Shown piece after piece: positions 5,635-27,801 of a DNA stretch of 27,801 nucleotides. Source of the stretch: a virus; IMG/VR virus record IMGVR_UViG_3300026140_000007, positions 1 to 27,801 of that record. The stretch is one strand, 5' to 3'. Position numbers and translations under genes: made by a program. The first letter of the stretch is position 1. Each line of letters opens with the position of its first letter. The notes below the pieces were generated by a model, which saw only the letters and a list, made by a program, of their open reading frames with translations, did no database searches and was not told where the DNA came from.

Positions 5635-6177
5635 TTAGCTGTTGAACTGCTGCTGGTTGAGCTTGTTCTGCTGGTAGGCCGAGTACCCGGAGCTGCCGAT
5701 CCGCAGAGCGCCAGCAAGTAGGTTCGGCTCATTGATTGGGTCAGGCTGGGCGTTAGTGATCCGCGCCTCCTGCTCGTTCTTGTACATCTCGCGGCGGACT
5801 TCACTCTGCTGCTGGGAGTTCTCGAAGTTGGTGTTCAGTGCGCTCATGTACTCACCCTCTTGGCGAGTAAAGTCAGCCAGAAGCTGATCTACTGAGTTGC
5901 CGCTGACGCCTGATTCCGCCGCAGAGACACGGGCGCGAGCCCGCGCTTGATCCGCTTCACGACTCTGTTGGGCCATTTTCTGGTTGGCCGCTTCGCGTTC
6001 CTGCTGAATCCGCAGGTTTTCTTGCTGGGTTTTCTGATTGCGGGCCTGCATGGCCTGCTGCTTATTACGTTCGTAGACGTTCTGCTGGTGTTCGGCCTGG
6101 GCTTCTGCCTGAGACCGCTGCTGTTGGAACTGCAGAGCGCTACTAGCAACAGCCATAGCTGTCATGGGATCGCACAT
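5635..6177 (-). CDS. Internal virion protein (gp14-like)
   Basis: 180 residues starting MCDPMTAMAVASSALQFQQQ, a beginning typical of gp14-like core proteins of T7-like phages (T7 gp14 has 196 residues). Residues 15-100 form a long Gln/Glu/Arg-rich coiled-coil-like helix (QAEAQAEHQQNVYERNKQQA). The T7 protein belongs to the internal core and is thought to form the outer-membrane part of the ejection channel. The ATG follows GTGAGGTAACC, so the ribosome-binding site overlaps the last codons of the gp13-like gene two bases upstream. The C-terminal ~40 residues carry a short hydrophobic stretch (NLLAGALRIG). Confidence 0.8.
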   Translation of the reverse strand: MCDPMTAMAVASSALQFQQQRSQAEAQAEHQQNVYERNKQQAMQARNQKTQQENLRIQQEREAANQKMAQQSREADQARARARVSAAESGVSGNSVDQLLADFTRQEGEYMSALNTNFENSQQQSEVRREMYKNEQEARITNAQPDPINEPNLLAGALRIGSSGYSAYQQNKLNQQQFNS

Positions 6178-10527: not shown

Positions 10528-11042
10528 CTTCCCGTGCCAGTATTACTACTGGGGTTGGACTGTCCCTTCGACCCATGCTGCGGCGCGTTGAATCGTTGCG
10601 CTACAGTCTCGAAACATACCTACTGCTCGGTTGCAGTTGTGGCACAGGAGGCCACGGATGGCACCGGTGTCATGGTCGTGATCGACGCAAAACACCTTGT
10701 ATCGTTTCGAGTACAAACGGCGTCGGCAAATGCCGCACCGTCCAGCCTGCTTATGGTATAGATCCCAGTAAGTCTCATCTGTGATCCCGAGGGTCTTTTC
10801 GCGCTGCTCGATAGTTCGGCAGCGTTTGCATACTCGGTCGCGCCGACCTTGGCGGTCTTTGCGATAGAACTCAGTGGGCTTCTTGGGTTTGCTACAGGAT
10901 TTGCAGGCTACTAGAGTCGCTCCGTGTCCAGTCTCTACACCTTCGCGCTTACTGCGCTGCCTTGGCTCGGGATTGCCCTCGGGCGATTGTGAGGGTTTCC
11001 CCGATTTTACGGAGTGTTTAGAGTCGGCCCGGTTCATGGTTA
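10528..11042 (-). ncRNA. Group I self-splicing intron interrupting the capsid gene
   Basis: 515 nt whose removal restores the capsid frame. Readable helices in transcript order: P1 pairs exon GTCGGCT (11049-11043) with guide GGCCGAC (11029-11023), with the expected U-G at the splice site; P3 CTCCGT (11014-11009) with ACGGAG (10925-10920); P4 TCGGG (11004-11000) with CCCGA (10971-10967); P5 CCCTC (10995-10991) with GAGGG (10980-10976); P6 GCC (10966-10964) with GGT (10941-10939) plus GCGC/GCGC (10957-10945); P7 GACTG (10933-10929) with CAGTC (10562-10558); P8 CGACTC (10919-10914) with GGGTCG (10574-10569); P9 CCAGTA/TACTGG with GTAA loop (10552-10537). The intron ends in G. A P10 pairs G, C, A, A, G of 11030-11035 with the first bases of exon 2. 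No room for P7.1/P7.2 exists, so it is not subgroup IA. The HNH gene sits in the P8 loop. Confidence 0.93.
10546..11037 (-). CDS. Intron-encoded HNH homing endonuclease (endonuclease VII-like)
   Basis: 163 residues. A zinc ribbon (C45, C48, C70, C73) precedes an endonuclease VII-type HNH domain: C101/C104, DHDHDTG at 119-125, RGLLC, then C132/C135 with N136. These match the Zn-binding cysteines and the D-H-H-N catalytic set of T4 endonuclease VII. Such nucleases in introns cleave intronless alleles and drive homing. Residues 1-41 and 155-163 are encoded by bases that also form the ribozyme core; only residues 42-154 lie in the free P8 loop. The ATG is two bases after the TAA that ends exon 1 in unspliced RNA, with no good ribosome-binding site, so translation may depend on readthrough of exon 1 and reinitiation. 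The stop TAG lies inside the P9 hairpin. No alternative start exists between the ATG and the first zinc cysteines. Confidence 0.9.
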   Translation of the reverse strand: MNRADSKHSVKSGKPSQSPEGNPEPRQRSKREGVETGHGATLVACKSCSKPKKPTEFYRKDRQGRRDRVCKRCRTIEQREKTLGITDETYWDLYHKQAGRCGICRRRLYSKRYKVFCVDHDHDTGAIRGLLCHNCNRAVGMFRDCSATIQRAAAWVEGTVQPQ

Positions 11043-11204
11043 AGCCGACTTGCCCGATTCGATGGTACGGACGAAATGCTTGTCCATCATGACCTGCTTC
11101 TGGTTGAAGGCGGTCAGGACTTCGCCCGAAAAGACTTTAAGGAAAAGTGCGCGAGCGTCACCGCTCCCGTCATTACCGGGGCGGCTCGGAATATAATCTG
11201 CCAT
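11043..11204 (-). CDS. Major capsid protein, exon 1 (gp10-like)
   Basis: 54 residues from the ATG at 11204: MADYIPSRPGNDGSGDARAL, then FLKVFSGEVLTAFNQKQV and VRTIESGKSA. T7 gp10 reads LFLKVFGGEVLTAFARTSV and VRSISSGKSAQFPV, so identity and the split point are clear. After the last codon (GCT) the next codon in the DNA is TAA, the first three intron bases, so unspliced RNA would give a 54-residue fragment only. The segment AGGGGAAACCCACAATG precedes the start; AGGGG may be the ribosome-binding site or the start of a phage transcript. The exon is too short to be found by simple ORF length and needs the intron model. Confidence 0.92.
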
Positions 11205-15058: not shown

Positions 15059-15085
15059 TAGGCCCAAGGACTGCCCCTGGGCCTA
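15059..15085 (-). other. Hairpin in the leader of the late block
   Basis: On the minus strand TAGGCCCA pairs perfectly with TGGGCCTA around a 10-11 base interior that can add two more pairs. There is no T-tract, so it is not a standard terminator. It lies about 14 bases into the transcript expected from the promoter candidate just upstream and may act as an RNase III site or a 5' stabiliser, as hairpins next to promoters do in T7. Confidence 0.55.
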
Positions 15086-15094
15086 CTGTTTATA

Positions 15095-15117
15095 TGTCCA
15101 TATAGTGTCGGGGTTAG
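15095..15117 (-). promoter_or_regulatory. Candidate phage RNA polymerase promoter after nrdA
   Basis: The minus strand reads CCCCGACACTATATGGACA, containing GACACTATA, the core of SP6-type promoters. It shares CGACACTATA with the candidate at 17865-17887. It lies in the gap between nrdA and the late genes. The likely start would be T or G at 15100-15099, so the initiation region (TGG rather than GGG) is imperfect. Confidence 0.55.
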
Positions 15118-17814: not shown

Positions 17815-18255
17815 TTATTTATAGCTGTATTGGCAGTAGTAGCGTAGTAGCCGCGTCATATCGGCGGCCCTATAGTGTCGTCCTTTCATCACCTTCCCAG
17901 ACGGCCCGAAGATCGGCCTCCCGTCTTCGTTGAGCTTCGACATATTGCTGTCGTGGACTTCCTCCATGGCCTCCTTGAGCGGCAGCGACAACGCCACTGC
18001 CATGCCCGAAAGGACGTACTGGAGGTCAGCCATTTCCTTGAGGAGATGGGCGACATCCTCCTCGGTGGGATCGTTGCCGCCTCGAAGAGTGGCGAGGACT
18101 TCGTCCGCCGCCTCCTGCAGCTCCTGTGCCTCTTCGGCGACCAGCTGGGTACGCAGGTTGAATACCGTCCCGTACTCGGGGTAGATCGGCATGTCCACAT
18201 CTTGACCAAAGGTCTTGGCGAACTGCCGTGCCATGGCTTCGCGGTTATCACTCAT
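17815..18255 (-). CDS. MazG-like nucleotide pyrophosphohydrolase
   Basis: 146 residues. The MazG/PRA-PH signature is present: EEAQELQEA (E-x2-E type) near residues 41-49 and KEMADLQYVL near 73-82, giving the four metal-binding acidic residues. The downstream SNMSKLNEDGRPIFGPSGKV is typical of phage and bacterial MazG-like proteins. Such enzymes hydrolyse (d)NTPs to monophosphates; in phages they are thought to recycle host nucleotides or tune (p)ppGpp-like signals. It sits between the dNMP kinase and RNR genes, consistent with nucleotide supply. The first eight bases overlap the end of the kinase gene. The last codons contain a phage promoter candidate. Confidence 0.85.
   Translation of the reverse strand: MSDNREAMARQFAKTFGQDVDMPIYPEYGTVFNLRTQLVAEEAQELQEAADEVLATLRGGNDPTEEDVAHLLKEMADLQYVLSGMAVALSLPLKEAMEEVHDSNMSKLNEDGRPIFGPSGKVMKGRHYRAADMTRLLRYYCQYSYK
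17865..17887 (-). promoter_or_regulatory. Phage RNA polymerase promoter candidate upstream of nrdB
   Basis: The minus strand reads AGGACGACACTATAGGGCCG. CACTATAGGG is identical to the core and start of the T7 consensus, and GACACTATAG is identical to the SP6 core. By analogy +1 is G17870. The site lies inside the last codons of the MazG-like gene and would drive nrdB-nrdA. Confidence 0.7.
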
Positions 18256-21929: not shown

Positions 21930-22605
21930 AGTCCATCCATCCCTCGATAAATTGACGGCACAGATCTGAGCGAACGATGTCGCTCGCCTTGAAGTCGACA
22001 TGCGGAACGTCCATGGACTTGGTTACTTCTAGGAGTGCAGTCAGCCCACTGCCGCCCTTAAGGTCGGACTGTCGGATGTCACCGTTTACCACCGTCGTCG
22101 TACCGACGCCGATCCGTGTGGTAAACATTTTCATTTCGGTGGGCGTGGTGTTCTGGGCCTCGTCAAGGATGACGAATGCGTCATTGAAAGAGCGGCCACG
22201 CATGGACTCGAAGGGAACCATTTGGATTGTCCCCTTGCGTAAATTGGCGTCGACAGCACCGGTGCCGAGGCGCTCCCGCAAGATCGTCAGGATCTCCGCG
22301 AACCACTCGACCATCTTTTCCTGTAGATCCCCAGGGCGATAACCCAGCGACCGACCGGACTGCACGTTCGGGCGCGTGAGGATGATCTTGTCGACGCCGT
22401 TCCGGGCCGCGCCCTGAGTCAGCCGGTCGGCGGCCATGATCGTCGGGACATAGGTCTTGCCGGTGCCGGAGTACCCGGTGGTGATGACCATGTCAGAGCC
22501 GGTGATCGAATTGATCAGGTGACTCTGGCGACGGGTCATCGGCTCCAACGGGGGCTTGGACTGGTGCTGGTCAGCGAACTTCTGCTTCTTTCGTCTTGCA
22601 CCCAT
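21910..22605 (-). CDS. phoH: PhoH-like ATPase
   Basis: 231 residues. Walker A is GYSGTGKTYV (about residues 44-53) and Walker B is AFVILDEAQNTTP, with the PhoH-specific EAQN; NGDIRQSD and the final SDIVRSDLCRQFI also fit the family. PhoH-like P-loop ATPases are common in marine phages and are often called phosphate-starvation genes; the bacterial relatives fused to toxins act as RNA helicases. The actual role in phages is unsettled. The ATG follows GAGGAAACA. Placed between primase-helicase and DNA polymerase, a replication- or RNA-related role is plausible. Confidence 0.92.
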   Translation of the reverse strand: MGARRKKQKFADQHQSKPPLEPMTRRQSHLINSITGSDMVITTGYSGTGKTYVPTIMAADRLTQGAARNGVDKIILTRPNVQSGRSLGYRPGDLQEKMVEWFAEILTILRERLGTGAVDANLRKGTIQMVPFESMRGRSFNDAFVILDEAQNTTPTEMKMFTTRIGVGTTTVVNGDIRQSDLKGGSGLTALLEVTKSMDVPHVDFKASDIVRSDLCRQFIEGWMDYEHGSR

Positions 22606-22637
22606 TGTTTCCTCAGTCGATTAGTTAAGGGAACGGA

Positions 22638-22787
22638 TCACTGGACTAGGCTGATCAACGTGATCAACGCAGCGCCCACCCCGAAAATGAGAAAGAAAAC
22701 ACCGAGAGCCAATAAGATCGTTGGGAGGATGTCTTTATGGTCAAGTTCAGTGAAGTCAGCGAATGGATCAGAAGGGAGATTGATCAT
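22638..22787 (-). CDS. 49-residue single-pass membrane protein
   Basis: ATG at 22787 inside the last codons of the primase-helicase gene (20-base overlap, different frame), preceded by GAGGAAAACGACG. The product starts MINLPSDPFADFTELDHKDI and then has a long hydrophobic stretch, ILPTILLALGVFFLIFGVG followed by AALITLISLVQ, i.e. one clear transmembrane helix with an acidic N-terminal part. No basic tail. Function unknown: it could be an inner-membrane effector or accessory lysis protein, though its place in the replication block argues against the latter. Supported by ribosome-binding site, overlap and composition. Confidence 0.6.
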   Translation of the reverse strand: MINLPSDPFADFTELDHKDILPTILLALGVFFLIFGVGAALITLISLVQ

Positions 22788-24381
22788 CGTCGTTTTCCTC
22801 TTGGTTCAGGAATTCATTGTCGCCACTCGGCTCGATCAACAGGCCCGAGCCTGAGTCGTACTCAAGCGGGATCGTCATGCCTGTCGCTCGGCCCGTGTAT
22901 CGATCCTTCAAGCCCCGCAGGTAGGTAGGCTCCGATGGATCTTGCTGATCTCGTTCGAGGCCGAACATAAAGTGGCACCAATAGCCAATCGCTCGGCTGC
23001 CCTTGAAGTGACGGATCATTACCCTGCCGCCTTCTTCGTGCGGCTTTCCTTCAGGGGTCGCCAAGTGGCTGACCAGATGGAGCGTGATGTCCAGCTCTTT
23101 GACGAGTGATCCGATCTCACTCATCACGCGCTCCAGCTCGACACGCTCGTCTGAGGTGCCGGAAACCAGCGCTGTCAGGTGGTCGAGATAGAAGAGCCTG
23201 ACGCCTTCGGAACGGGCTAAATAACGGATCCTCTGCTGGATGATGTCCCAGTCGGTCGAGCCGAAGTGGTCATAAAGGTACAGGTTGCCCTGCTCATCGA
23301 GCTGATCGAGTGCAGTGCTGAGTTCCTCGGTGTCCCAGCCATCGTCGGGAACATGGAATCGCTTCAAAGCCTGCTTACCGGCCAGCCGCTTGGCTGTCTC
23401 GACCGGTTGCTGCTCTAGGAAGAACATCCCCACGGGCTCGCCGAGTTCGACGAGATCGAACACAGCCTGCTGCGTCAGGAAGTCAGTCTTACCGACACCG
23501 GTGCCAGCGCCTATCGCATAGACCTCACCGGTGCGACGCCCGTAGGTCATGTCGGTCAGCGTTTTGAAACACCACGGCAAGCCAACTTCATTCGGCTGCT
23601 TGACCCGATCTTTGATCTCCCCGAGCTGCACAATGCCGTCCGGGCGGAAACCTTTGGCACCCCAGATAGCATCGATGATCTCTTTGCCTCGCCCGGCGAC
23701 GAGCATTTCGTTCGGGTCTTTCATGGGCAGACGGGCGATCCGGGCCCGGCCCGGTGACAGACACATGGCTGCCTCACGGGCTGCCGACTGGCCAACCTCA
23801 TCCTGATCCAGCATGAACACCACACGCTCATAGCCCTCGAGCCATTCGAGCGCCTTGCTGATCGACTTGGCAGCAGACTGAGCGCCATCCTTGAGGCTGA
23901 CCACGGGCCACTTATTGCCTTGCGTCTGGCTCACCGACATAGCGTCGATCTCGCCCTCGGTGATCACCACCATCTTGCCTTCGTCCCGCCAGAGGCTCAT
24001 TCCCCATAGCGGTTCGGCTTCCTTAACGGCACCCTTCCAGAAGAAATCCTTGTCCTTGGTGCGGATCTTCTGGGCCACACGGTGGGGGCTGGCAGTGCCC
24101 GAGTAGTTGGCGATCTGCACAGGGCGGCCTTTGTAGATAGCCGTTTGGTAACCAAACAGGCTCGCGGTCTTCTCAGTGATCCCACGCTTCTGCAGCGGCT
24201 GGGTCTCGCCATCGACGATCAGGTCTTGGGTTTGACTCATAGGCCTTTCCTTTGGCGTCTCGCCGTGTCCGGGTTCGTAGTAGCGGCAGCCGAAGCAATA
24301 AGCGTGGCCATCATCGAACCGCGCCAGATTGTCTCGGCTCCCACATCGAGGGCACGGTTCGTGATGGATGAACTCGCTCAT
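22768..24381 (-). CDS. Primase-helicase (T7 gp4-like)
   Basis: 537 residues. An N-terminal zinc-binding domain (C10, C13, C29, C32) recognises priming sites; a TOPRIM primase core has TEGEIDAMS (141-149) and FMLDQDEVG (189-197); a RecA-type helicase has Walker A GAGTGVGKT (291-299), Walker B LFYLDHL (396-402) and LHLVSHLATP. The acidic tail ends DDDQSPF with a terminal Phe, the feature by which T7 gp4 contacts the polymerase. A second in-frame ATG at 24240 (Met48), just after the zinc domain, has AAGGAAAGG upstream and may give a helicase-only form like T7 gp4B. The start overlaps the winged-helix gene by four bases (ATGA). Confidence 0.96.
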   Translation of the reverse strand: MSEFIHHEPCPRCGSRDNLARFDDGHAYCFGCRYYEPGHGETPKERPMSQTQDLIVDGETQPLQKRGITEKTASLFGYQTAIYKGRPVQIANYSGTASPHRVAQKIRTKDKDFFWKGAVKEAEPLWGMSLWRDEGKMVVITEGEIDAMSVSQTQGNKWPVVSLKDGAQSAAKSISKALEWLEGYERVVFMLDQDEVGQSAAREAAMCLSPGRARIARLPMKDPNEMLVAGRGKEIIDAIWGAKGFRPDGIVQLGEIKDRVKQPNEVGLPWCFKTLTDMTYGRRTGEVYAIGAGTGVGKTDFLTQQAVFDLVELGEPVGMFFLEQQPVETAKRLAGKQALKRFHVPDDGWDTEELSTALDQLDEQGNLYLYDHFGSTDWDIIQQRIRYLARSEGVRLFYLDHLTALVSGTSDERVELERVMSEIGSLVKELDITLHLVSHLATPEGKPHEEGGRVMIRHFKGSRAIGYWCHFMFGLERDQQDPSEPTYLRGLKDRYTGRATGMTIPLEYDSGSGLLIEPSGDNEFLNQEENDDDQSPF

Positions 24382-24695
24382 GCCGCGTGGGTAGGCTCGT
24401 TCGAGAGTTTTGCCGACCCCGAATCAATGAATCGCAAGACAAGCGGGTCGAAGAAGTACCGGGTGTACCGCTTGCCGCTCATCGGGTTCTTCCGCTGCTC
24501 TCGGGTGATGCGAACGCCAAGATCCTCCAGATCGCAGATCCGGCGAGACAGCGTGGCGCTGGTCATGTCCAGATCCATCATTGCCTCGCGGGCGGTGATG
24601 CTGAAGTCGTTCCGCTCCATCATCAGGAGTACCTTGAATGCCTGCGGAGAAGCGGCGCTCAAGACATAGTTCGCGACGGGGGAGAGTTCATTCAT
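24378..24695 (-). CDS. Winged helix-turn-helix protein
   Basis: 105 residues. Residues 30-85 read as a winged helix: helix FSITAREAMMDL, turn, recognition helix MTSATLSRRICDLEDLGV, and a wing ITREQRKNPMSGKRYTRYFF. This resembles MarR/bacterial regulator-like DNA-binding domains. It may be a phage transcription regulator or replication accessory factor. It is the first gene after the amidase terminator and overlaps the primase-helicase start (ATGA), so both are co-translated. The ATG has GAGG eight bases upstream. Fold call by inspection; target unknown. Confidence 0.7.
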   Translation of the reverse strand: MNELSPVANYVLSAASPQAFKVLLMMERNDFSITAREAMMDLDMTSATLSRRICDLEDLGVRITREQRKNPMSGKRYTRYFFDPLVLRFIDSGSAKLSNEPTHAA

Positions 24696-24729
24696 GGTGG
24701 ATACCTCGCTGTTTCAGGTGTTGAACGCG

Positions 24730-24758
24730 AAAAAGCCCAGAGCAGACGCCCTGGGCTT
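24730..24758 (-). terminator. Intrinsic terminator downstream of the amidase gene
   Basis: On the minus strand AAGCCCAG pairs perfectly with CTGGGCTT around a 10-base loop, ending in a run of five T. It begins five bases after the amidase stop codon and precedes the winged-helix/primase genes. Confidence 0.85.
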
Positions 24759-24781
24759 GGGTTCACTTGGTGTCGGCTAAT
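24756..24781 (-). repeat. Third copy of the CCGACAC repeat, at the amidase 3' end
   Basis: The minus-strand sequence ATTAGCCGACACCAAGTGAA plus CCCAAG is identical over 26 bp to 26685-26710. Here it encodes the last amidase residues (LADTK) and the stop, and runs into the first bases of the terminator stem. Confidence 0.85.
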
Positions 24782-25176
24782 CGACGCGATACGTCGAATG
24801 AAGGGCAGGCCTTGGCCGATAGGTCGTTGTGGCCGACCACCTTCAGGTCGCCATACATAATCTTCTGAAGCTGGATCAGCTCGCGCAGTGCGTTGATCTG
24901 GGCGGGCTTGAAGTTGTCCTCGGGTTCCATGTCTTCATCGACGCCACCTACAAGACAGACGCCAATGCTCCGGTGGTTGTAACCCTTCGCATGAGCGCCT
25001 ACAGCATCGGCGGGCCGCCCTGTCTGGAGGGTTCCGTCCCGGCGGATGACGTAGTGGTAACCAATTCGCAGCCATCCTTGTTCGCGGTGCCAGCGGTCGA
25101 TCTCTGCTACACCGATGTTCATCGACGGCGGTGTTGCCGAGCAGTGAACGACCAGCAGGTCGGTTTCTTGTCTCAT
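24763..25176 (-). CDS. N-acetylmuramoyl-L-alanine amidase (T7 lysozyme, gp3.5-like)
   Basis: 137 residues (T7 gp3.5 has 151). Zinc ligands H11 (VVHCSAT), H116 (VVGHNDL) and C124 (KACPSFDV), with the catalytic Y40 (GYHYVI) and K122, are all present. The enzyme cuts the amide bond between muramic acid and the peptide in peptidoglycan and, in T7, also binds and inhibits the phage RNA polymerase. The first four bases overlap the endonuclease I stop (ATGA). The last codons belong to a 26-bp sequence repeated downstream of the RNA polymerase gene. Confidence 0.95.
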   Translation of the reverse strand: MRQETDLLVVHCSATPPSMNIGVAEIDRWHREQGWLRIGYHYVIRRDGTLQTGRPADAVGAHAKGYNHRSIGVCLVGGVDEDMEPEDNFKPAQINALRELIQLQKIMYGDLKVVGHNDLSAKACPSFDVSRRLADTK

Positions 25177-25619
25177 TTCTCGATCAGCTTCTGGGCTGCC
25201 TCCTTTGCTTTTGCGTTGCCTTCCTCAGTCAGCCATAGCGCCCACTCATCGCTTGCTTTAACGGAGGCATAGGGGAACCCTTGGCGGTCGCACCACATGC
25301 CGTACGTCGTCGATGAGCGCTTGCTGATTCGGTTGTTCGGGTTGGAGAAAATAAAGCGGATATCGAGATCGGGGAGCTGACTTTTGATCATCAGCATTTT
25401 CTGGCGGTCTTTGGTGACGAACCTACCCTTGGTCTCGATGATGATGCCGTTGGATAGAACGAAGTCTGGCTTGTACTTTGCCTCGCGGGCGGGGACTAGG
25501 TATCGGATGTTCCCAGGCTCGTACTGATAGGGGATCTCATGCTGATCCAGCCAGTCCCCTACCAGTCGTTCGAGCCCGCCTCGGAAGCCATCGTCACCTT
25601 TGACGATCTTCGCTCCCAT
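25173..25619 (-). CDS. Endonuclease I, Holliday-junction resolvase (gp3-like)
   Basis: 148 residues (T7 gp3 has 149). Active-site residues are E17 (FRGGLE), D52 (YKPDFVL), E62 and K64 (IIETKGR), matching T7 E20, D55, E65 and K67. Further conserved segments are PDLDIRFIFSNPNN and TTYGMWCDRQGF. The enzyme resolves branched DNA before packaging and helps degrade host DNA. The ATG overlaps the SSB stop (TGATG) and the stop overlaps the amidase start, so the three are co-translated in T7 order 2.5-3-3.5. Confidence 0.95.
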   Translation of the reverse strand: MGAKIVKGDDGFRGGLERLVGDWLDQHEIPYQYEPGNIRYLVPAREAKYKPDFVLSNGIIIETKGRFVTKDRQKMLMIKSQLPDLDIRFIFSNPNNRISKRSSTTYGMWCDRQGFPYASVKASDEWALWLTEEGNAKAKEAAQKLIEK

Positions 25620-26263
25620 CAGAAGTCCGGGTCGTCGTCCCCGTTATCGCTGCTGGCCGGTTCGCTCTCAGGAGCCGGGTCTTCGTCCGGTGTCTCCTGC
25701 GGCTCATCGGGAGCCTCGAAGCCGTCCTCTTCGCCGAAGCCGAACGAATCAGCGCTCTGCGTTTCGGGGCCGACCAGCTCAATGACCTGCACGGCCTCCA
25801 GCTTCAGCGCAATGCCGACGCCGATGGGTGCCTCATAGTTGCGGATCCAATAGGCCACGCGGCCTACCGAGTTGCCCCAGATCTGCGTCCCCTTGGGGAT
25901 CGGCTTGCCCTTCGAGTCGAACAGCTTCGGGCTAAGGTCAAATTCCTTGCCAGCCTGAGTCTTCACGCGGGCTGGCATTGAGAACTTAAAGTCCATCTCG
26001 CCCGTCTCATTGCCCTCATCGTCGACAACCTCGGTGCAGCTAAGGTCGGCAACCTTGGGCTTCTTCTTGTTGTCCTTCTTCCACTCGGCAACCCACTCGT
26101 CCCGGCGGGATTCGAGCTGCTGCTTCAACTCTTTCGCATCCTCGCCATCCAAGCGCAGCTTCAGGCTGTACTCGCCGTTCTCCTTGAACTTGTAATCCGG
26201 CTCGGTGAGCTTCGGGAAGATGAATGTGCCTTTCGGGGTGGTGAACTTCTCTCGTTTGGCCAT
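25619..26263 (-). CDS. Single-stranded DNA-binding protein (gp2.5-like)
   Basis: 214 residues (T7 gp2.5 has 232). N-terminal FTTPKGTFIFPKLTEPDYKF and the central MPARVKTQAGKEFDLSPKLF fit the family, an OB fold that binds ssDNA. The last 45 residues are almost all Glu, Asp, Pro and Ser, ending DDDPDF: the acidic tail with terminal Phe by which gp2.5 contacts DNA polymerase and primase-helicase. The ATG is preceded by GAGGTAACC. The helicase in this phage ends in a similar acidic Phe tail. Confidence 0.92.
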   Translation of the reverse strand: MAKREKFTTPKGTFIFPKLTEPDYKFKENGEYSLKLRLDGEDAKELKQQLESRRDEWVAEWKKDNKKKPKVADLSCTEVVDDEGNETGEMDFKFSMPARVKTQAGKEFDLSPKLFDSKGKPIPKGTQIWGNSVGRVAYWIRNYEAPIGVGIALKLEAVQVIELVGPETQSADSFGFGEEDGFEAPDEPQETPDEDPAPESEPASSDNGDDDPDF

Positions 26264-26270
26264 GGTTACC

Positions 26271-26531
26271 TCAGGTGTTGAGTTCGTTGCGGACGTAGTC
26301 GACCACCGCTGCGAATTCAGGCCGCCGACCTTCGGCGTGGCTGGTCATCCGCTGGGTGGTAGCGATCAGGTCGTTGATGGTCATGCCGCTGGCCTCGCTC
26401 ATGGCGATGAAAAGGGCTGCGACAGCGGGAACCTGTACGCCCTTGGGGTGACGCTGGAGCTTGTCCAGCGCATCCACTGCAGCGCCGCTGACATGGCGAA
26501 GGTCTGCATTGGTGATCTGGTCGCGATTCAT
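26271..26531 (-). CDS. Small protein of unknown function
   Basis: 86 residues, MNRDQITNADLRHVSGAAVD onward, mostly helical with a small apolar stretch (VQVPAVAALFIAMSE) that is too short and amphipathic for a sure membrane segment. It starts with an ATG that overlaps the stop of the 47-residue gene (ATGA) and has GAGGAGG upstream. The SSB gene follows after seven bases. Its place between RNA polymerase and SSB corresponds to T7 genes 1.1-2, which hold small host-takeover proteins, but no specific match is recognised. Confidence 0.7.
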   Translation of the reverse strand: MNRDQITNADLRHVSGAAVDALDKLQRHPKGVQVPAVAALFIAMSEASGMTINDLIATTQRMTSHAEGRRPEFAAVVDYVRNELNT

Positions 26532-26671
26532 GTGGCCTCCTCACGGAACTGCTGGACAGCGGCGGCCCGGAGCTTGGCCTTGGCCCTGCCGTCCATGGTC
26601 GACCGGTCATAGCACCGGCCATCGATGATCACGCTGTCGGTCACAGCGTTGGTGTGAATGGTTAGCTGCAT
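26528..26671 (-). CDS. 47-residue protein of unknown function
   Basis: ATG at 26671 with GGAG ten bases upstream; product MQLTIHTNAVTDSVIIDGRC followed by YDRSTMDGRAKAKLRAAAVQ and QFREEAT. The N-terminal half looks like beta strands and the C-terminal half a basic helix. It follows the tandem repeats and overlaps the next gene by four bases (ATGA). No family is recognised. Support is from ribosome-binding site, overlap and position. Confidence 0.6.
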   Translation of the reverse strand: MQLTIHTNAVTDSVIIDGRCYDRSTMDGRAKAKLRAAAVQQFREEAT

Positions 26672-26681
26672 TGCGGTCTCC

Positions 26682-26736
26682 AGCCTTGGGTTCACTTGGT
26701 GTCGGCTAATTGAGCCTTGGGTTCACTTGGTGTCGG
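26682..26736 (-). repeat. Two tandem 24-bp repeats after the RNA polymerase gene
   Basis: CCGACACCAAGTGAACCCAA plus GGCT occurs at 26736-26713 and again at 26705-26682, a 31-bp period. They lie in the only gap between RNA polymerase and the next genes, where T7 has promoters phi1.1A and phi1.1B and its primary origin. They share CGACAC with the two promoter candidates but lack TATAGGG. A promoter, origin or regulator site are all possible. Confidence 0.85.
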
Positions 26737-26748
26737 GAAACTACCGGA

Positions 26749-26775
26749 CGGGCAGCGGAACGCATCCGCTACCCG
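26749..26775 (-). other. Strong hairpin downstream of the RNA polymerase gene
   Basis: On the minus strand CGGGTAGCGGA pairs with TCCGCTGCCCG (10 Watson-Crick pairs and one G-U) around loop TGCGT. It begins six bases after the polymerase stop. No T-tract follows, so an RNase III processing site, as at R1 behind T7 gene 1, is likelier than an intrinsic terminator. Confidence 0.6.
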
Positions 26776-26781
26776 ATGCCT

Positions 26782-27801
26782 TTAGGCAAAGAAGTATTGC
26801 GACCTGAGGACATCCTCGATCTCCAGGTTGCCCCTCTCAGGCAGCTCAGGGATCTTCTTCTGGCGGGCCTCGGTGAGCATCTCAGCGATCTCGTCTCGAA
26901 ACTCACGAAGCGGATCATGGCGCTGGTAGATATCGACGAACGCCTCGCGGAGACTGTCGACACTGGCCTGCGTGTCTGCCGCATGGGTGCCATAGCTGTC
27001 GTGGATCAACGAGAAGTCCTCGACACCACGACGGCGGGCAAAGCAGACATAGCGGATCAGCGCGGCAGCATCGAGGCTATGCACGAAGTTCGGGCTAATG
27101 CCCGTGCTTTGCTTGGACTTGTCCAGCCCCCGCTGCCCGGTGCGAACCGAGAGCTTGATCGTGCTATCCCCGAGCATCGTCTCCACTCGATGAAGCTTGA
27201 TGTTGGGATACGCCTGCAGAACATGGAATCCGACGGGAGTCGTCCATGTCACCGGCAGTTCCTCCGCTGATGCCAGCTTTGCAACCTGCTGCAGCCAAGT
27301 CATCGCCTCGGCTGATGCGACAACGATCTCGTCAAGCGACTCGTAGATCACTTTGGAGAGAATCAGGCTGGCCCGGTATACATCCTGAGGATCGTCGGGG
27401 TTCAACACCTCTCGCTCTCCATGCGTCCTGTCGTCCCACAGATGCTCATAGACGTACTGCTGGGTCGCCCTCCGGGTTCCCCCATAGGGGCGGATCATCA
27501 CAGCCCGCTTGGTGGTTTTGCGGTCGATGCCGATGGCCAGCCAGCGCTCTGCCATGACTTTCTCCTCGGGATCCTTTCCGCTATCGGATGCGATTAGACG
27601 CAGCTTCTCCGTCGTCCGGTTAGCGACCCGCTGGTAGATGTCCTGCGGCTCATCCTTAGGCAGTAGGTTGGTGGCCTCGCCACCGCCGCTGTCCCTCAGC
27701 ATCGCCGAGAAGTGCTGGAGCCCATTGCATGACCCATCGAGCTGAACCGGGAGGTGGCTCTCGAAATGGTCGCCCTCATCGATTCGCCGGGCGTACTCCA
27801 T
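26782..27801 (-). CDS. T7-type single-subunit RNA polymerase, C-terminal 339 residues
   Basis: The gene enters from the right edge; the ATG at 27801 is an internal Met, since the family has about 500 more residues upstream. Catalytic parts present: LPVQLDGSCNGLQHFSAMLR (D22 here is T7 D537), RKTTKRAVMIRPYGG (R94, K98, Y106 are T7 R627, K631, Y639), ISPNFVHSLDAA (H241 is T7 H784) and LIHDSYGTHA (D268 is T7 D812). The C-terminus ends FFA, close to the essential FAFA of T7. The enzyme transcribes the middle and late phage genes from its own promoters. Its specificity loop lies between the last two motifs and differs from T7, consistent with the non-T7 promoter candidates found here. Confidence 0.97.
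   Translation of the reverse strand: MEYARRIDEGDHFESHLPVQLDGSCNGLQHFSAMLRDSGGGEATNLLPKDEPQDIYQRVANRTTEKLRLIASDSGKDPEEKVMAERWLAIGIDRKTTKRAVMIRPYGGTRRATQQYVYEHLWDDRTHGEREVLNPDDPQDVYRASLILSKVIYESLDEIVVASAEAMTWLQQVAKLASAEELPVTWTTPVGFHVLQAYPNIKLHRVETMLGDSTIKLSVRTGQRGLDKSKQSTGISPNFVHSLDAAALIRYVCFARRRGVEDFSLIHDSYGTHAADTQASVDSLREAFVDIYQRHDPLREFRDEIAEMLTEARQKKIPELPERGNLEIEDVLRSQYFFA

Follow-up and report, generated by a model that had tools for sequence, protein, structure and literature searches.

Three repeats in the middle region of a T7-like phage as probable promoters of its own divergent RNA polymerase

The stretch of viral DNA analysed here (the window, 27,801 nucleotides), from a phage known only from metagenomes, carries a middle region in T7-like order: RNA polymerase (RNAP), two small genes, a gp2.5-like ssDNA-binding protein, endonuclease I, an amidase endolysin, a winged-helix protein and primase/helicase. 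Directly 3′ of the RNAP gene, whose stop codon ends at 26782, and of a hairpin at 26750-26774, the 24-mer AGCCTTGGGTTCACTTGGTGTCGG (+ strand) occurs exactly at 26682-26705 and 26713-26736, the two starts lying 31 bp apart. This confirms an earlier, sequence-only reading of the same DNA, which had described two exact 24-bp copies at this spacing behind the polymerase and its hairpin; a third copy, at 24756-24784, escaped that reading and agrees with the copy at 26685-26713 at 28 of 29 positions. Dinucleotide shuffles gave 0 matches, versus the three seen in the real sequence. The whole-genome repeat search proposed at that time yields the third copy and, on both strands of the window, no other above chance (weight matrix from the three copies, compared with shuffles). 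Two IMG/VR fragments, 99.3-99.9% identical and from the same phage, carry the repeats as well: the tandem pair is present in L003, and all three copies are in L004 (L005 reversed). The features are as follows, the recognition pattern being RATTA.....CAC.

26782..27801, minus strand: T7-type RNAP, C-terminal 339 aa (complete 847 aa in L003:82-2622)
26750..26774, minus strand: 10-bp hairpin without a T run, between the RNAP stop codon and copy A (z -4.6)
26716..26742, minus strand: copy A, RNAP-proximal tandem member, AGTTTCCCGACACCAAGTGAACCCAAG; recognition pattern 6/8, predicted start G 26724
26685..26711, minus strand: copy B, second tandem member, AATTAGCCGACACCAAGTGAACCCAAG; recognition pattern 8/8, predicted start G 26693
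24756..24782, minus strand: copy C, over the last endolysin codons, GATTAGCCGACACCAAGTGAACCCAAG; recognition pattern 8/8, predicted start G 24764
24730..24758, minus strand: intrinsic-terminator-like hairpin, 11-bp stem then TTT, directly after copy C (z -4.1)
24378..24695, minus strand: winged-helix protein (HTH_39), homologous to LUZ100 gp18
15091..15117, minus strand: possible late promoter variant, CTAACCCCGACACTATATGGACATATA; same CCGACAC at -11 to -5, TATA region, recognition pattern 3/8

All three copies lie on the minus strand, as do the surrounding genes, and each sits at a gene junction of the middle region; this is what promoters would look like, a repeated element of ~20-25 bp on the coding strand between middle-region genes. 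On that strand they read [A/G]ATTAGCCGACACCAAGTGAACCCAAG, with the 5′ end changed in one of them, copy A (AGTTTC). The predicted start G of copy C falls inside the endolysin stop codon TGA. A start at copy B would give a 23-nt leader with GGAG before the ATG at 26670, which is therefore the probable start of the ORF listed with GTG 26695. The hairpin between the RNAP gene and copy A is possibly a processing or pause site. L003 is the only contig that reaches upstream of the RNAP. It opens with CCCAAGG (positions 1-7), which matches the end of a repeat copy with one further G and lies 75 nt ahead of the RNAP start codon. It looks as if the assembly had broken within a fourth copy, in the position that phi1 takes in LUZ100, but the stretch is too short to count. 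The search for sigma-70 promoters near the repeats gave 0 candidates in 22500-27801, and RNA families at the Rfam gathering score gave none in the window. Elsewhere on the minus strand, the major capsid gene (T7 gp10A-like) is split into a first part at 11040-11204 and a second up to about 10530; the splitting stretch (10536-11076) holds an Endonuclease_7 (HNH-type) ORF at 10546-11037, matches the group I intron RF00028 with 34.9 bits (E 4.5e-7, the gathering score of 50 not being reached) and is probably a group I intron with a homing endonuclease.

We propose that the three repeats are 'middle' promoters of the phage's own T7-type RNAP, with a probability of roughly 0.87. Whole-length similarity of the RHEph01, LUZ100, T3 and T7 elements to the repeats is not above that of shuffles, which leaves position, register and covariation to carry the case. 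Concerning position, the closest guide is the Pseudomonas phage LUZ100, in which transcript starts were mapped by ONT-cappable-seq (PMC10134795): phi2 and phi3 stand in tandem right after the RNAP, and phi4 sits on the 3′ end of the endolysin gene, ahead of terminator T6 and gp18 (PMC10134795). The three repeats occupy the places of phi2, phi3 and phi4, and the winged-helix protein behind copy C resembles gp18 (35%, E 3e-12). LUZ100, RHEph01 and TRX32-1 likewise have such a hairpin behind the promoter or repeat that corresponds to copy C. These three phages strongly support the assignment of the tandem pair to the place of T7 phi1.1A/phi1.1B made in the sequence-only reading, and copy C extends the analogy to phi3.8. 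More broadly, promoter-like repeats flank the RNAP on the coding strand in 16 of the 72 loci with full flanks, compared to 0/72 inside the RNAP gene and 0/72 on the other strand as controls. As a separate observation, a promoter or promoter-like repeat at the endolysin 3′ end, with a strong terminator-like hairpin within a few bases, is common to four phages (window 24730-24782; L049 8625-8700; L047 12115-12180; L052 6999-7065).

The same position raises the alternative that the tandem pair belongs to a primary replication origin, as around T7 phi1.1A/phi1.1B, which we consider unlikely. As in T7, tandem promoter candidates (copies A and B) follow the RNAP, a T3 record puts the primary origin just after the first promoter behind the RNAP, and promoters can also prime replication, so that an origin would be compatible with promoter function. 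However, the DNA downstream has no AT-rich stretch of the T7 type: its GC content is 59-63%, falling no lower than 51% in any 61-bp stretch nearby; moreover, copy C is the same element outside the origin place. Apart from position, the origin elements that had been suggested therefore find no support.

The promoter reading is further argued for by the register of the repeats. The -17 to -5 layout of T7-type promoters, an AT-rich block, specificity bases and CAC, is matched at 8/8 positions by copies B and C and at 6/8 by copy A. Leaving the specificity bases out, the pattern RATTA.....CAC is found at 8/8 at only two sites on either strand of the window, both of them repeat copies; one or two perfect fits are expected in the window from base frequency alone, so the weight of these fits lies in their falling on the repeats. 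In T7 register, the aligned elements are TAATACGACTCACTATA then G in T7, GATTACCACCCACTTAA then G in TRX32-1, GATTACCACACAGGTAT then G in LUZ100 and GATTAGCCGACACCAAGT then G here. What speaks against a promoter is the melting region, which has CAAG at -4 to -1 rather than TATA (LUZ100 and TRX32-1 likewise depart from TATA), with T at +1 in T7 numbering and a G one base later, so that the start would have to be shifted. Comparison with L057, an IMG/VR contig, suggests that the G of GAACCC would be the first transcribed base, the spacer before it being one base longer than usual.

The third line of evidence comes from the polymerase itself, whose identity to every RNAP in the searched phage collection is <46%. 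In T7 RNAP, N748 contacts -10/-11, R756 contacts -9 and Q758 contacts -8 (PMC5937735); the specificity residues here are R746, E748, T756 and K758, position 756 hinging on the placement of one gap. The RNAPs of 79 viral loci and reference phages were aligned, the repeated elements around each RNAP were identified with the specificity bases left out of account, and the RNAPs were then clustered. Among the clusters, which are related by descent, an acidic residue 748 goes with C at -11 in 5/5 and a basic one with G in 11/11 (p = 2e-4). A later search of 72 bacterial-genome loci gave a call in 9, and C stands at -11 in 7/8 of those with acidic 748; this held-out set contains only one basic-748 locus with a call and is not significant alone (p = 0.22). 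E748 together with CC at -11/-10 in the repeats agrees with the other acidic-748 RNAPs; across the group, residue 748 predicts base -11. K758 fits less well: most relatives with it have C at -8, though SP6 and K11 have A, as here. In another locus, L082, we read by eye E748 and, near the RNAP gene (at 5859, and 27 bases past the RNAP end), CCCCTGCAC, whereas most relatives with its downstream sequence (CACAATTGGA) have K748 and GGTTGCAC elements; L082 thus looks like a natural switch of promoter specificity.

This covariation also bears on the proposal that the repeats are operators of the winged-helix protein (24378-24695), one beside its own gene and two after the RNAP, for control of middle transcription. 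The protein does have a winged-helix domain, copy C lies upstream of its gene and the 31-bp spacing is about three helical turns, all consistent with regulator sites as the sequence-only reading had envisaged them. Nevertheless, we regard this proposal as quite improbable: instead of a clear dyad symmetry, the repeat sequence has just CAC-CAA-GTG with 3-bp arms, the equivalent sites in LUZ100, which has a homologue of the protein there, are mapped transcript starts, and operators would leave both the T7-type -17 to -5 match and the covariation with RNAP residue 748 unexplained. A regulator is not needed to account for the repeats, and it is possible that the winged-helix protein binds on top of a promoter. 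Finally, that the tandem copies are functionless recombination relics, the endolysin 3′ end having been copied behind the RNAP, is hardly credible: copy C does cover the last endolysin codons, but the identity extends past the endolysin stop codon, and the endolysin-end elements of LUZ100, RHEph01 and TRX32-1 differ from those of the window while matching the other copies of their own phage.

With the repeats taken as promoters, we infer binding, melting, start site and the genes driven by each copy as follows. The RNAP would read positions -17 to -5 ([A/G]ATTAGCCGACAC), the AT-rich end by its AT-rich recognition loop and CCGAC (-11 to -7) by its specificity loop; it would open CAAGT and initiate on the G that follows or on a neighbouring base (GAACCCAAG...). 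The tandem pair would drive the two small genes and those of the ssDNA-binding protein, endonuclease and endolysin, and copy C would drive the winged-helix protein and the replication genes, through a terminator stopping part of the transcripts.

Also against the promoter reading, the late genes are preceded by no exact element, and the only variant there, the intergenic site at 15098-15110 (minus strand, CGACACTATATGG), misfits the AT-rich part of the recognition pattern. This 15110 site (CCCCGACACTATATGGACA) corresponds in place to copies in RHEph01 (19685) and TRX32-1 (14705), and may be a late promoter version. It is conceivable, though doubtful, that one RNAP serves two classes of promoters with a CCGACAC core: a middle class, the three repeats, which has no TATA region and whose start is shifted by one base, and a late class of TATA type, the 15110 site, in which case the melting region, and not recognition, would set timing or strength. 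The suggestion that the repeats form a second promoter class has the roles the wrong way about: the repeats are probably the main promoters of the DNA-metabolism genes and the 15110 site a possible late variant. The statement that they share CGACAC with TATAGGG candidates is literally right, but the only exact example in the window, CGACACTATAGGG at 17868-17880 (minus strand), lies inside a MazG-like gene; since it codes for part of that protein's conserved GKV.KG..Y stretch, its role as a promoter is doubtful. By eye, a long hairpin (TAGGCCCAGGGGCAGTCCTTGGGCCTA) can also be read at 15060-15085 (minus strand), directly after the 15110 site and before the pre-portal gene.

Compared with known systems, the repeats represent a known kind of switch, and their specificity and initiation region are unseen in the relatives examined. 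They are the likely cognate promoter (core CCGAC) of a divergent RNAP, and the two could serve as an orthogonal polymerase-promoter pair. The closest known systems include the SP6 and K11 promoters: SP6 shares TTAG..GACAC but differs in having GTGAC with TATAG. T7 has phi1.1A, phi1.1B and phi3.8 at the same gene positions and the same -17 to -5 layout, while its core is GACTC, with TATA and a GGG start. L057, whose RNAP is 40% identical, has two copies of AATTAGGTTGCACTAGTGAACC after the RNAP, one of them with GAGCC, and a further one ahead of the RNAP; AATTAG, CAC and AGTGAACC are common to both elements, AGTGAACC lying one base nearer to the core in L057, which differs by K748, a GTTGC core and TAGT before the start G, one base shorter. 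The Rhizobium phages RHEph01 and TRX32-1 (Paadamvirus) have their own repeats behind the RNAP, ahead of the portal genes and at the endolysin end, where a terminator-like hairpin accompanies them; promoters were predicted in TRX32-1 by PhagePromoter (PMC8631192). The TRX32-1 element GATTACCACCCACTTAAGCAAACCCAAG aligns to that of the window with one gap (2/2000 shuffles are as good). Unlike here, both phages have additional copies with the same core before the RNAP and portal genes, and a TTAAG initiation region in which the start is not displaced. LUZ100 shares GATTA and ACA at matching positions and GA after the start, but has a CACAC core, GGTAT before the start and six further-reaching copies, including one before the capsid gene, which is absent from the window. 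The LUZ100 promoter layout, in which one promoter lies on the endolysin stop codon with a terminator right behind it, is more widely shared.
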